34,007 nt of DNA. Origin: Candidatus Mediterraneibacter quadrami (GTDB taxonomy: Bacteria > Bacillota > Clostridia > Lachnospirales > Lachnospiraceae). Position numbers and translations under genes: made by a program. Shown here piece after piece: positions 3,345 to 6,752 of the stretch. Numbering within the stretch: the stretch's first letter is position 1; every line of letters starts with the position of its first letter. Location of the stretch: contig DWUU01000049.1 of NCBI GenBank assembly GCA_019120575.1, positions 1-34,007 of the forward strand, read 5' to 3'. The notes below the pieces were generated by a model that worked only from the letters and a program-made list of their open reading frames with translations, was not told the origin of the DNA and did no database searches.

Positions 3345-3863
3345 TTAATAGTAGTAGTATGCCATATCCATCAGGCCGCCGATCGCAACCATCTGGAAGA
3401 TATTCCAGACAATGCCCACTGCAACAGCAACGATGATCCAGATCTTCGCCGTCCTGGCCGCCTTTTCAGCCGCCTCATAATCTCCCGCCGAAACCGAACT
3501 GTTGATCTTCGCCGCAAACACAATCGCAACGACACCAAACGGAAGACAGCAGCATAAGGTAGATATAATTGAAAGGACCAGATAAGGAATCCAGTTGACC
3601 GGCTCATGATTGACCGGCTGCTGGTATATCGGTGTCGGCTCTGACTGATAGACCGGACCGGACTGCTGGTACTGATAACCGGAATCACCGGTCTGCTGTG
3701 TATTATTTTCCGTCTGCTGTGCGGTATCCTCCGCCGGTTTCACAGATTCAGCCGCGGCGCCGGCCTCTGCATGGACCGGACCCGCTTCCGGCTGCTGTGT
3801 CCCGCAGTGCGGACAGAATTTTGATCCATCAGGGATTTCCTGATAACATTTGATACAATTCAT
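3345..3863 (-). CDS. Zinc-ribbon protein with CD225/dispanin domain
   Basis: The N-terminus is a zinc ribbon (CxxC at residues 4-7 and FCPHCG at 17-22). A low-complexity Pro/Gln/Glu-rich linker of about 70 residues follows, then a CD225/dispanin domain with two membrane helices (YLVLSIISTLCCCLPFG, AIVFAAKIN, GDYEAAEKAARTAKIWI). CD225 proteins associate with membranes and can oligomerise; bacterial members have no settled role. The protein ends in four tyrosines. GAGG lies 8 nt before the start. It heads the reverse-strand group that runs into pyrF-pyrK-pyrD. Confidence is high for the architecture and none is claimed for function. Confidence 0.85.
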   Translation of the reverse strand: MNCIKCYQEIPDGSKFCPHCGTQQPEAGPVHAEAGAAAESVKPAEDTAQQTENNTQQTGDSGYQYQQSGPVYQSEPTPIYQQPVNHEPVNWIPYLVLSIISTLCCCLPFGVVAIVFAAKINSSVSAGDYEAAEKAARTAKIWIIVAVAVGIVWNIFQMVAIGGLMDMAYYYY

Positions 3864-3961: not shown

Positions 3962-6676
3962 TTATTGTGCCGGCCATTTTTTCTCACCCAGCCTGACCTT
4001 TTCGATCTCTCCGGCAGCCTCTTCCTCCAGACAGTCAAACAGGTAAGTACGGAGCGTGCCGCCCTTCCCGAGATGCGCCCCGCGCATTTCCCGGATCACG
4101 AGCTCCACTTCTTCACGCAGACCGGCCGCCGACATCCGCCGGGCGCCCTGTCCAAGGATGATCACCTGCTCCAGCGCATCCGAAGTAGCCACGGTAACCG
4201 CGTGATCGCGCGCGATCTTTTTCACGGTCTTCTCGATATACTGGTCCGCCGTCTCGGCCTCCTTCGTATAAACAATGTGGATATTATGATATTTTGTGAT
4301 CTCCCCGGGATTTCCTTCTACCTTGTAAGCGTCAAATACAAGGATCAGGGTGCATCTCCGGAATCCCTGATAATTGCACAGGATGTCCGCAAGCTTCCCT
4401 CTCGCGGCTGCCAGATCAATTTCGGACAGTTCCCGGAGTTCATCCCACGCAAAAATGATATTATAGCCGTCCACCAGCAGGTATTCTTCCTGCGGACTTC
4501 TCCGTTTTGCTCCGGAAGGACCGCCTGCGCCGCCCGGATCTTTTCGCGGCTTTGCCTCTACTTTCACCGGCGTACTGTTCACACTGCGCCTCACCGGGTC
4601 CGGCGTGCGTACATAGATGGCGTCCAGTTCCTCCTGCGTCAGTTCGATCTTGCTGGAAACCGGCCTCGCCGCCCGGCGCACCGCAGTTTCCTCCGCCTTC
4701 TCCCGGTCTTCCAGAACGCTTTCAACATGCATCTGATCCTCCACCTGGTACCATGGCACAATGATCCCCGCGCCGTGGGAACAGAACACAGAGTCCGCGG
4801 GGTTCTCAATATCACCATCCGGATCATAGCCAAGCGCTTCGACCACCTCTTCTGCATTGTGACAGATATCGTATCCTTTCAGCGTACAGGTCAGCCGGCC
4901 GAATCCGCCGGTATACGCCGCGAACTCCTTCTGGTAATCCCGCATTTCCGACACAGGCGCCGTACCGGTCAGAACCGCAGCATCCCCTTCTGTCTCCGGA
5001 CCGCTGAAGCTGCCGTACATCCGCTGGATGTCGGTCATGGCCCGTCCCACATTTTCCATGGGCAGCTCCATCCGGAATTCATAATACGGTTCCAGCAGCA
5101 CACTGTGCGCTTTCCTGAGTCCCTGCCGCACCGCACGGTAAGTGGCCTGCCGGAAATCTCCGCCTTCCGTATGTTTCTGATGCGCCCGGCCGGATTTCAG
5201 CGTGATCTTCACGTCCGTCAGCGCAGAGCCGGTCAGCACGCCCCGGTGCTCCTTCTCCTCCAGATGCGTGAGCGCCAGACGCTGCCAGTTCCGGTCCAGG
5301 ATGTCCTCGCTGCAGTCCGCCGCATATTGCATCCCCGAGCCGCGTTCCCCCGGCTCCAGGAGTAGATGCACCTCCGCATAATGCCGAAGAGGCTCGAAAT
5401 GCCCCACCCCTTCAACGGTATTGCCGATAGTCTCTTTATATACAATATTCCCGCTTCCGAAGGTGATCAGAACGCCGAACCGGTCTTTCACCATTTTCTG
5501 CAGGACTTCTGTCTGCACATCCCCCATGAGCTGGATGTGGATCTCCTTCTTCTCTTCCACCCACACCACATGAAGCTCCGGGTCCTCCTCTTCGATCTGC
5601 CGGAGGTTCTGGACCATCCGGTGGACATCACAGCCCTCCGGCAGTTCCACCCGGTACGTCAGCACCGGCTCCAGCACCGGGAGTTCCGAATCCGTCTCCG
5701 CGCCGATCCCCTGCCCCGGATATGTTCCTTCCGGACCGGTCACCGCGCAGACCATACCGGCCTGCGCCTCCTGCAGCAGTTCGTATTTATCGCCGGAATA
5801 CAGCCGGATCTGGTTCACCTTGCCTTCCACATCCGGCAGCGTCTCTTTTACCCGCAGTTCCCCGCCTGTCACTTTGAGATACGTCAGCCGGTTGCCCTGC
5901 GTGTCCCTGGTGATCTTGTAAACCTTGGCCCCGAATGTTTCCGGATATGCCGTGGATACGGCATACTCCCGGATCCCGTCCAGGAATTCTCCGATCCCTT
6001 CGGCTTTCAGCGCAGACCCGAACCAGCAGGGGAAGATCCTGCGCTCTGCGACCGCTTTTCCAAGGAGCGCTGTATCGAGCCCGCCGGTCTCCAGATAGGA
6101 TTCCAGAAGTTCTTCATCACAGACGGCTATAACCTCCGCCTGTTCAGCCCCGACACTGCCGTTTTCATTATCAGGCAGTCCAGTAAAATCCACACAGTTC
6201 TCGCCCAGCCTGTCTTTCAGCTGCCGCATCAGCGCTTCCCGGTCAGTGCCTTCCCGGTCCATCTTATTTACGAAAATAAAGACCGGCACCTGATACCGCT
6301 CAAGCAGCTTCCAGAGGGTCATCGTATGCCCCTGAATCCCGTCCGCGCCGCTGATGATCAGCACCGCATAGTCCAGCACCTGCAGGACCCGCTCCATCTC
6401 CGCAGAAAAATCCACATGCCCCGGCGTATCCAGGAGCGTGATGTCCAGATCTTTCCACGAGAACACCGCCTGCTTGGAGAAGATCGTGATCCCCCGCTCC
6501 CGCTCCAGCTCATAAGTGTCCAGAAACGCATCGCCGTGATCCACCCGGCCCATGCTCCGGATGCCGCCGCTTAAGTAGAGCATTCCCTCGGACAGCGTCG
6601 TCTTCCCCGCATCGACATGGGCGACAAGCCCCAGGCAGATATGTTTTTTCTTATTATCTTCAGACGTATTTCCCAT
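3962..6676 (-). CDS. TetM-like ribosomal-protection GTPase fused to Rae1/YacP NYN nuclease domain
   Basis: A 904-residue two-part protein. Residues about 14-665 align by eye with TetM/EF-G-type translational GTPases: G1 AHVDAGKT (19-26), switch I RERGITI, G3 DTPGH (83-87), G4 NKMD (137-140), then domains II-V. After a Pro/Lys/Gly-rich linker (about 665-729) comes an NYN domain like Bacillus Rae1/YacP (about 730-867): VDGYN, VFDAYKVEG, TKEAETADQYIEK, ATSDALEQ and GQGARRMSA, retaining the acidic residues. Rae1 is known as a ribosome-dependent mRNA endonuclease. The domain IV loop reads AHQKHTEGGDFR where TetM has YYSPVSTPADFR, so tetracycline resistance is doubtful. I infer a ribosome-bound factor that cuts mRNA. 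The second ATG was chosen because AGGGG lies 8 nt upstream; 6700 is the alternative start. Confidence 0.9.
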   Translation of the reverse strand: MGNTSEDNKKKHICLGLVAHVDAGKTTLSEGMLYLSGGIRSMGRVDHGDAFLDTYELERERGITIFSKQAVFSWKDLDITLLDTPGHVDFSAEMERVLQVLDYAVLIISGADGIQGHTMTLWKLLERYQVPVFIFVNKMDREGTDREALMRQLKDRLGENCVDFTGLPDNENGSVGAEQAEVIAVCDEELLESYLETGGLDTALLGKAVAERRIFPCWFGSALKAEGIGEFLDGIREYAVSTAYPETFGAKVYKITRDTQGNRLTYLKVTGGELRVKETLPDVEGKVNQIRLYSGDKYELLQEAQAGMVCAVTGPEGTYPGQGIGAETDSELPVLEPVLTYRVELPEGCDVHRMVQNLRQIEEEDPELHVVWVEEKKEIHIQLMGDVQTEVLQKMVKDRFGVLITFGSGNIVYKETIGNTVEGVGHFEPLRHYAEVHLLLEPGERGSGMQYAADCSEDILDRNWQRLALTHLEEKEHRGVLTGSALTDVKITLKSGRAHQKHTEGGDFRQATYRAVRQGLRKAHSVLLEPYYEFRMELPMENVGRAMTDIQRMYGSFSGPETEGDAAVLTGTAPVSEMRDYQKEFAAYTGGFGRLTCTLKGYDICHNAEEVVEALGYDPDGDIENPADSVFCSHGAGIIVPWYQVEDQMHVESVLEDREKAEETAVRRAARPVSSKIELTQEELDAIYVRTPDPVRRSVNSTPVKVEAKPRKDPGGAGGPSGAKRRSPQEEYLLVDGYNIIFAWDELRELSEIDLAAARGKLADILCNYQGFRRCTLILVFDAYKVEGNPGEITKYHNIHIVYTKEAETADQYIEKTVKKIARDHAVTVATSDALEQVIILGQGARRMSAAGLREEVELVIREMRGAHLGKGGTLRTYLFDCLEEEAAGEIEKVRLGEKKWPAQ

Positions 6677-6681
6677 AGAAA

Positions 6682-6737
6682 ATACCCCTTTCTGTTCCAT
6701 GATTACGCAAACCTAATCATAGCACAGAAAGGGGTAT
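6682..6737 (-). promoter_or_regulatory. SD-sequestering leader hairpin of the GTPase-nuclease gene
   Basis: Arms 6682-6695 and 6724-6737 are a perfect 14-bp inverted repeat. Inside, after a 3/3 internal loop, 6699-6705 pairs with 6714-6720 (7 bp) around an 8-nt loop. In the reverse-strand mRNA the 3' arm contains the AGGGG ribosome-binding site of the gene starting at 6676. UAUUUUCU follows the stem, so the structure could alternatively be a terminator for the deacetylase gene, which stops 15 nt earlier. Both readings allow attenuation control. Confidence 0.7.
6703..6720 (-). CDS. Candidate five-residue leader peptide (MIRFA)
   Basis: Within the apical part of the leader hairpin the minus strand reads ATG ATT AGG TTT GCG TAA. 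The ORF lies wholly between the two 14-nt arms, so a ribosome on it would disturb the hairpin that hides the downstream ribosome-binding site. Short leader ORFs are known upstream of tet(M), erm and cat genes. The ORF has no convincing Shine-Dalgarno of its own and is short enough to arise by chance; the arrangement, not the ORF alone, is the evidence. Confidence 0.3.
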   Translation of the reverse strand: MIRFA

Positions 6738-6752
6738 AAGTCGACAATTCAT

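Follow-up and report, generated by a model that had tools for sequence, protein, structure and literature searches.

The window analysed here is a stretch of 34,007 nucleotides from Candidatus Mediterraneibacter quadrami (assembly GCA_019120575.1, contig DWUU01000049.1, positions 1 to 34,007, forward strand). Its minus strand carries, at 3962-6676, a gene that joins an EF-G-like translational GTPase to a nuclease domain of the NYN_YacP/Rae1 type within one protein of 904 residues. The frame begins with an ATG that has a Shine-Dalgarno (SD) sequence. A second in-frame ATG lies upstream at 6700 and would give an alternative form of 912 residues (3962-6700, minus strand); the ATG at 6676 is judged the likelier start, because AGAAAGGGG precedes it at SD distance. 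Residue numbers given below refer to the 912-residue form, those of the structure model to the 904-residue form (subtract 8).

All features of the protein are encoded on the minus strand. The G domain (Pfam GTP_EFTU, E 2.3e-50; residues 18-247, 5960-6649) contains the motifs AHVDAGKT, RGITI, DTPGH, NKMD and GSALK and is followed by EF-G-like domains II-V (residues 258-615, 4856-5929), for which Pfam gave matches to EFG_III (1e-8), EFG_IV (6e-16) and EFG_C (3e-18), the EF-G_D2 match in domain II being below the Pfam cut-off (22.3 vs 27 bits). The tip loop of domain IV reads KHTEGGDF (residues 509-516, 5153-5176), and domain V is followed by a C-terminal tail (residues 613-659, 4724-4864) with the pattern CHN..EV...YD...D.EN..SVFCSHGAG..V.W..V...MH. 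A tether with predicted disorder (model residues 670-728, 4487-4708) leads to the NYN_YacP/Rae1 nuclease domain (residues 741-903, 3992-4480), recognised by Pfam, by a structure-sequence match and by alignment. The TetM/EF-G motifs at the N-terminus and the NYN motifs at the C-terminus, which a preliminary description of the gene had read from the DNA, were all found in this single open frame, and the domain search that it proposed returned GTP_EFTU, the EFG domains and NYN_YacP.

In an AlphaFold2 model based on 42 aligned fused sequences (mean predicted local distance difference test score, pLDDT, 83.5; predicted template modelling score 0.65), the GTPase, including most of domains II-V, and the NYN module are mostly confident and are separated by a low-confidence stretch at model residues 670-728, so that a disordered tether between two folded modules is indeed predicted. 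The tail behind domain V is ordered in the model, and pLDDT is also below 50 at model residues 1-7 and 868-880. The 50 Foldseek matches listed for the model are all EF-G-like or EF-2-like and include EF-G on and off ribosomes; none of these 50 is a structural match to the NYN part.

The fusion is real, a single intact protein that joins GTPase and nuclease. Of the genus, 37 genomes were compared, and in 34 of them an open frame of 907 residues or more runs through the NYN domain. As to the three exceptions, the gene ends at a contig end in one (G005), the fusion has its NYN domain spread over three frames in another (G008), and NYN_YacP occupies a frame of 194 residues in the third (G011, locus L212), an arrangement that may be split, lost or misassembled. 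Named relatives include Mediterraneibacter and Blautia, the nearest being 96% identical. Purifying selection acts on both modules. For the GTPase the ratio of nonsynonymous to synonymous substitution rates (dN/dS) between the window gene and five relatives (L058-L061 and L070) is 0.08-0.14, for the NYN domain it is 0.035-0.07, and the values against a Blautia gene (L062) are 0.12 and 0.19, respectively. The linker changes faster than the modules, with dN/dS of 0.10-0.31 where unsaturated. These values are rough, as several of the distances are near saturation. A frameshift, which the preliminary description had raised as a possible source of a false join, or an assembly artefact is ruled out by the long frames in 34 of the 37 genomes and by the dN/dS values.

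The two modules and the tether

The nuclease module is unambiguous at the level of domain assignment, with an NYN_YacP score of 167.4 bits against a Pfam cut-off of 24.6 (E 3.5e-49) and a sequence match to the solved YacP structures 5mq8/5mq9 (E 1e-23). An alignment of 47 fused and 37 standalone rows with few duplicates (81 of the 84 rows differ) shows the same six active-site residues (D744, N747, D790, D819, E823 and D841) in every row, so that the loss of a catalytic aspartate, named in the preliminary description as a possible flaw, was not encountered. Rae1/YacP of Bacillus subtilis has the same NYN_YacP domain and active-site residues and the same match to 5mq8/5mq9, but it is a standalone protein of about 170 residues, whereas here the domain is the C-terminal module of a 904-residue GTPase protein (residues 741-903 of 912). 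A further difference lies at the very C-terminus, where a glutamate and an arginine are each invariant in the standalone proteins (37 of 37) while 23 and 26, respectively, of the 47 fused rows, about half, have a gap at these positions; the window protein retains both residues. One reading of the alignment is that the GTPase may replace part of the docking surface of standalone Rae1. A search of PADLOC for an anti-phage role was negative, none of the PADLOC-DB models matching the protein at E 0.001.

The linkers of 65 distinct fused proteins, counted from the end of the profile match to the start of the NYN domain, are 64-121 residues long (median 75) and rich in lysine and glutamate. A loose acidic-hydrophobic motif, [DE][DE]h..hh, is present in 39 of the 65, compared with a mean of 1.0 and a maximum of 5 in 200 rounds of shuffling. 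Its frequent form is EELxxIFERTYG; the window version, IELTQEELDAIYVRT (near 4613-4636), is modelled as a short helix at low confidence. Amino acid identity of the linker to three relatives (L070, L061, L062) is 0.36-0.56. The earlier characterisation as a low-complexity linker holds in part, as the sequence is K/E-rich and predicted to be disordered, but it overlooks the conserved short motif.

The GTPase retains G1-G5 and domains II-V in the EF-G-like order. It has the domain order and fold of EF-G but scores only 301.7 bits on the NCBIfam EF-G equivalog model, the cut-off being 659.4, and its domain IV tip differs from that of an EF-G-like control. With Tet(M)/Tet(O) it has in common the EF-G-like five-domain architecture, and tet_protect is the best NCBIfam model and hence the closest curated family; the score of 431 bits is far below the equivalog cut-off of 775, and five relatives reach 374-421 bits. 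Of the Tet-type controls, three pass (L116, L118, L119; 817-853 bits), two fall short (L115 and L120; 685 and 703), and a sixth (L114) had no tet_protect match at the E-value limit used. The tip of domain IV, SPVSTPADF in the Tet control L118, is KHTEGGDF here. The fusion is also unlike Tet(M)/Tet(O) in its extra tail, its tether and its nuclease. On the tet_protect score, the scores of relatives and controls, and the tip, membership in Tet was rejected, and the TetM-type identity assumed in the preliminary description is given up.

By the tests made, the GTPase instead appears to belong to a distinct, non-Tet subfamily that has unfused members. Fused and unfused members share the KHTEGGDF tip, with variants, and a GHFEPLRHYAE loop, both lacking in the controls. 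The tail with its CHN, SVFCSHGAG and MH elements is common to the fused and most unfused members and absent from the controls; among the exceptions, the later tail motifs are missing from L112, and some unfused sequences stop before MH. A subfamily profile was built from domain IV to the tail (26 rows) and used in genome searches at an E-value limit of 1e-50. Members, many of them training rows, score 362-429 bits on it, with L112 an outlier at 237; eleven unfused training rows, each left out in turn, score 332-384, and the controls remain well below, the six Tet-type proteins at no more than 140 bits and the EF-G-like protein at 75. The unfused members, which include LSL_RS10690 of Ligilactobacillus salivarius pMP118 (with the tip variant VHTVGGDF) and frames of about 640-730 residues from other Clostridia, have the same tip and mostly the same tail, and have neither tether nor nuclease. 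In L. salivarius pMP118 (L102, 3408-5926) the unfused GTPase, annotated as Tet, adjoins rpsN and a putative metal homeostasis gene, and a link of this GTPase to metal stress is possible.

Distribution and origin of the fusion

Genomes were surveyed at the level of order, class and phylum. Because the samples overlap and contain related genomes, the counts are descriptive and do not amount to independent tests. Fused and unfused members of the class sample were sorted by the listed frame lengths. The subfamily is present in 115 of its 273 genomes and NYN_YacP in 181. In 91 genomes, from 22 families, a subfamily frame of 841 residues or longer occurs together with NYN_YacP somewhere in the genome; these fusions were called on frame length, and the GTPase-NYN pair was seen within one frame for part of them. 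Seven further genomes have fusions that are apparently cut or interrupted (G375, G392, G401, G497, G509, G514, G556), the gene of G401 leaving its contig within the NYN domain. The remaining subfamily genomes comprise 16 with unfused genes, 11 of which have a separate NYN_YacP and five of which have none, and one with a fragment (G526). The phylogenetic survey suggested in the preliminary description has thereby found fusion-length frames to be near genus-wide and common across the class.

In the phylum sample (279 genomes) the subfamily occurs in 20 genomes, 18 fused and two unfused by length. NYN_YacP, found in 150 of the 279, is present in all 20 subfamily-positive and in 130 of the 259 subfamily-negative genomes, and none of the 129 genomes without NYN_YacP has the subfamily; since frame length marks 18 of the 20 as fusions, this co-occurrence says little more than that the two modules are fused. 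Among the 294 genomes of the order sample, 169 have the subfamily and 268 have NYN_YacP, and the only subfamily-positive genome without NYN (G117) has its gene cut at a contig end.

The window genome, which is 94% complete, contains one NYN_YacP match, the fusion being the sole copy found. Two matches per genome are rare, with five cases among the 294 genomes of the order sample (G056, G085, G149, G167, G178), of which the second match of G056 is a 27-bit fragment and those of G178 may be pieces, and three among the 273 of the class sample (G448, G499, G531). The trees described next fit a fusion that stands in for a standalone Rae1.

A quick GTPase tree without bootstrap (47 fused, 31 unfused and 7 outgroup rows) places the fused rows in one clade, with the unfused L092 just outside. 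A strict clade of fused GTPases is not rejected by the approximately unbiased test (p 0.60); the tree with that clade exceeds the freely searched one by 6.1 log units. The NYN tree groups the fused rows and the standalone rows each into nearly one block, and in bootstrapping the fused rows make up one side of a branch in only 4% of 200 trees. The simplest account, unproven, would be a single old fusion of an unfused GTPase with Rae1, followed by vertical inheritance with some losses. Five Lachnospiraceae genomes (G123, G198, G245, G287, G310; loci L036, L041, L044, L045, L047 and L094-L097, L101) carry a standalone NYN whose grouping with the fused ones is weak, and those of their GTPases that are in the tree (L094, L097, L101; three of five) fall in the unfused clade. 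It is possible that these five have lost the fused GTPase half and gained another GTPase.

Proposed action on the ribosome

On balance, and with somewhat more confidence than doubt, we favour an interpretation in which the fusion is a clostridial Rae1 tethered to its own, non-Tet, EF-G-like GTPase, by which it would be brought to ribosomes with an accessible A site; the protein probably cuts mRNA on stuck ribosomes and does not confer tetracycline resistance. EF-G-like factors place domain IV in the A site. Rae1 depends on translation and, in the available parts of three papers, is proposed to enter the A site or said to cut there (PMC10100781, PMC12320835, PMC8266666). Ribosome binding is expected from homology, and delivery, hand-off, A-site cleavage and rescue are inferred. 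Bound to GTP, the GTPase would occupy the factor site of paused or stalled ribosomes with an accessible A site, and the KHTEGGDF tip of domain IV would probe the decoding centre. GTP hydrolysis would then lead to withdrawal of domain IV, upon which the NYN domain, held nearby by the disordered tether of about 75 residues, would move into the A site and cleave the codon; alternatively, the tethered NYN domain might cleave on a neighbouring ribosome in a collision. Of the two products, the 5' one would pass to rescue of the tmRNA type and the 3' one to exonucleases. The preliminary description had proposed delivery to stalled or drug-bound ribosomes, of which the latter target has no specific support, since the GTPase tests as non-TetM-type.

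Several observations weigh against this interpretation. The NYN domain and domain IV, both expected in the A site, should compete for it on one ribosome, so that the mechanism requires either a hand-off or action on a neighbouring ribosome. The unfused GTPase of L. salivarius (L102) falls within the fused GTPase clade at a position that the tree does not resolve, and the NYN tree places the five standalone Lachnospiraceae rows next to fused ones at weak support (87/62). In G011 no subfamily GTPase was found within about 2.9 kb upstream of the NYN frame. Unfused GTPases occur without NYN_YacP in five class genomes (G356 and G384, of one genus, G359, G398 and G502), and in others they share a contig with Rae1 at a great distance (G434, G472, G536, G551). 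NYN_YacP is present in 11 of the 16 class genomes with an unfused GTPase compared with 72 of the 158 without the GTPase, a difference that is not significant (p 0.11). An obligate GTPase-Rae1 pair, for which the phylogenetic profile looked strong in 64 hand-picked genomes, is therefore not confirmed in the class sample, and the profile was dropped as support.

As unfused GTPases persist without NYN_YacP in five of 16 genomes, the GTPase is probably more than a carrier of the nuclease, which suggests that it has a function independent of it. The likeliest alternative, though clearly less probable than the reading we favour, is a protein of two functions, in which the GTPase is an independent factor that relieves pauses or remodels translocation and the nuclease acts mainly when this fails or on a neighbouring ribosome, the fusion providing co-expression and proximity rather than obligate delivery. 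The many GTPase-less genomes with NYN_YacP and the fast evolution of the linker also speak for such an arrangement. It fits less well with the retention of the fusion across 22 families, with a linker motif conserved well above the level of shuffled sequences, and with the frequent absence of the standalone C-terminal residues from the fused NYN domains.

That the fusion is a tetracycline resistance protein to which an RNase was added is improbable, although this has been put in print: Atkinson et al. 2015, in the available part of the paper (PMC4342817), describe NYN-bearing 'Tet' proteins from ten Clostridiales species and suggest a possible resistance mechanism. Some database records point the same way by carrying labels such as TetM, TetW, TetO and TetS; a fused copy from Agathobacter is annotated as Tet, unlike that of Monoglobus, which is annotated as a translation factor GTPase family protein, and tet_protect is after all the nearest curated family. 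The scores of the protein and its relatives, set against the cut-off and the five scoring controls, contradict this assignment, as does a gene that is near genus-wide and under selection. According to the same part of that paper, it is domain IV loops that dislodge tetracycline in Tet proteins (PMC4342817), so that the non-Tet-like tip is evidence, if no proof, against such an activity. Least probable of all is a factor for ribosome biogenesis or for maturation of rRNA or tRNA, with the NYN domain processing precursor RNA and the GTPase checking the subunit, as the complete EF-G-like domains IV and V suggest binding to the 70S ribosome and later papers, in the parts available, describe Rae1 as translation-dependent and mRNA-cutting.

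The architecture itself is already in print, as the preliminary description had suspected. Compared by description, the proteins of Atkinson et al. 2015 have the same architecture, and the available part of their paper (PMC4342817) files them in Tet, whereas we find a separate and widespread subfamily with a nuclease linked to Rae1. A full-text literature search whose coverage did not include Leroy 2017 and Condon 2018 returned mention of the architecture only in that paper, as far as its available part goes, and no functional study of the fusion. Added here are the separate GTPase subfamily with unfused members, the widespread fusion replacing Rae1, and the arguments that disfavour resistance. 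Since one unfused and one fused member carry a tetracycline resistance annotation, resistome counts can be inflated. The natural fusion of Rae1 to an EF-G-like GTPase with a distinct domain IV tip makes the route of Rae1 to the A site, and its recognition of that site, testable with one purified protein, and if the interpretation we favour is true, a GTP-controlled mRNA-cutting factor would be added to the ribosome quality control of common gut bacteria.

Neighbouring genes and leader

No functional partner of the fusion was identified among the neighbouring genes. A polysaccharide deacetylase gene lies upstream, and downstream are a CD225/zinc-ribbon gene, a DUF2752 gene and pyrimidine genes. 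The first of these, directly downstream of the fusion (3345-3863, minus strand), encodes an interferon-induced transmembrane protein-like CD225 domain with an N-terminal zinc ribbon.

The leader of the fusion gene contains a putative promoter, read as TCGACT-N17-TATGAT with the extended -10 element TGCTATGAT (6716-6744, minus strand), and a perfect inverted repeat of 14 bp (6682-6737, minus strand; ATACCCCTTTCTGT at 6737-6724 and ACAGAAAGGGGTAT at 6695-6682). The right arm of the repeat contains the SD sequence and the left arm lies within the 17-bp promoter spacer. The RNA of 6640-6745 (106 nt) folds at -36.9 kcal/mol (z -6.26), and none of 200 shuffled sequences was as good. An alignment of 12 leaders from Mediterraneibacter, Blautia and other relatives shows outer pairs that hold and are mostly invariant, and one inner pair that occurs as C-G, A-U or U-A and is unpaired in four of the 12. 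At 20 loci picked for one arm the other arm was present in all, mismatched in three; the same inner position varies on both arms in some of them, and nine match a strict leader pattern. Support for the hairpin from covariation is modest.

Use of this promoter would leave the left arm untranscribed, in which case a hairpin would silence read-through transcripts only, or the repeat would be an operator; with a start further upstream it would be a hairpin that sequesters the SD sequence. The palindrome may be a read-through silencer, an operator or an attenuator. On a reading that is more improbable than not, an SD-sequestering palindrome would limit expression of the fusion in Mediterraneibacter and Blautia by silencing read-through transcripts. 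Of 89 genomes searched, 46 contain the 12-mer CCCCTTTCTGTG, which occurs once in the window genome. More distant fused genes (e.g. L064, L073-L081, L152-L162) showed no such repeat upstream, the leader was not found in a search of plasmids and viral contigs, and no Rfam family matched it at a useful score.

In many leaders of close relatives (L058-L063, L066, L067, L070, L192-L211) the inverted repeat overlaps both promoter and SD sequence, and the first 14 nt or so of the coding sequence are nearly identical DNA across Mediterraneibacter and Blautia. A second copy of the leader repeat is located 0.8-1.6 kb upstream in L194, L210, L208 and L209, and in L194 and L210 the full leader is present twice. 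In L194 (225-1900) an SLFN_AlbA_2/HATPase_c_4 gene lies between the two leader copies, an arrangement that resembles an insertion behind a copy of the promoter; L208 contains only pieces of a similar gene.

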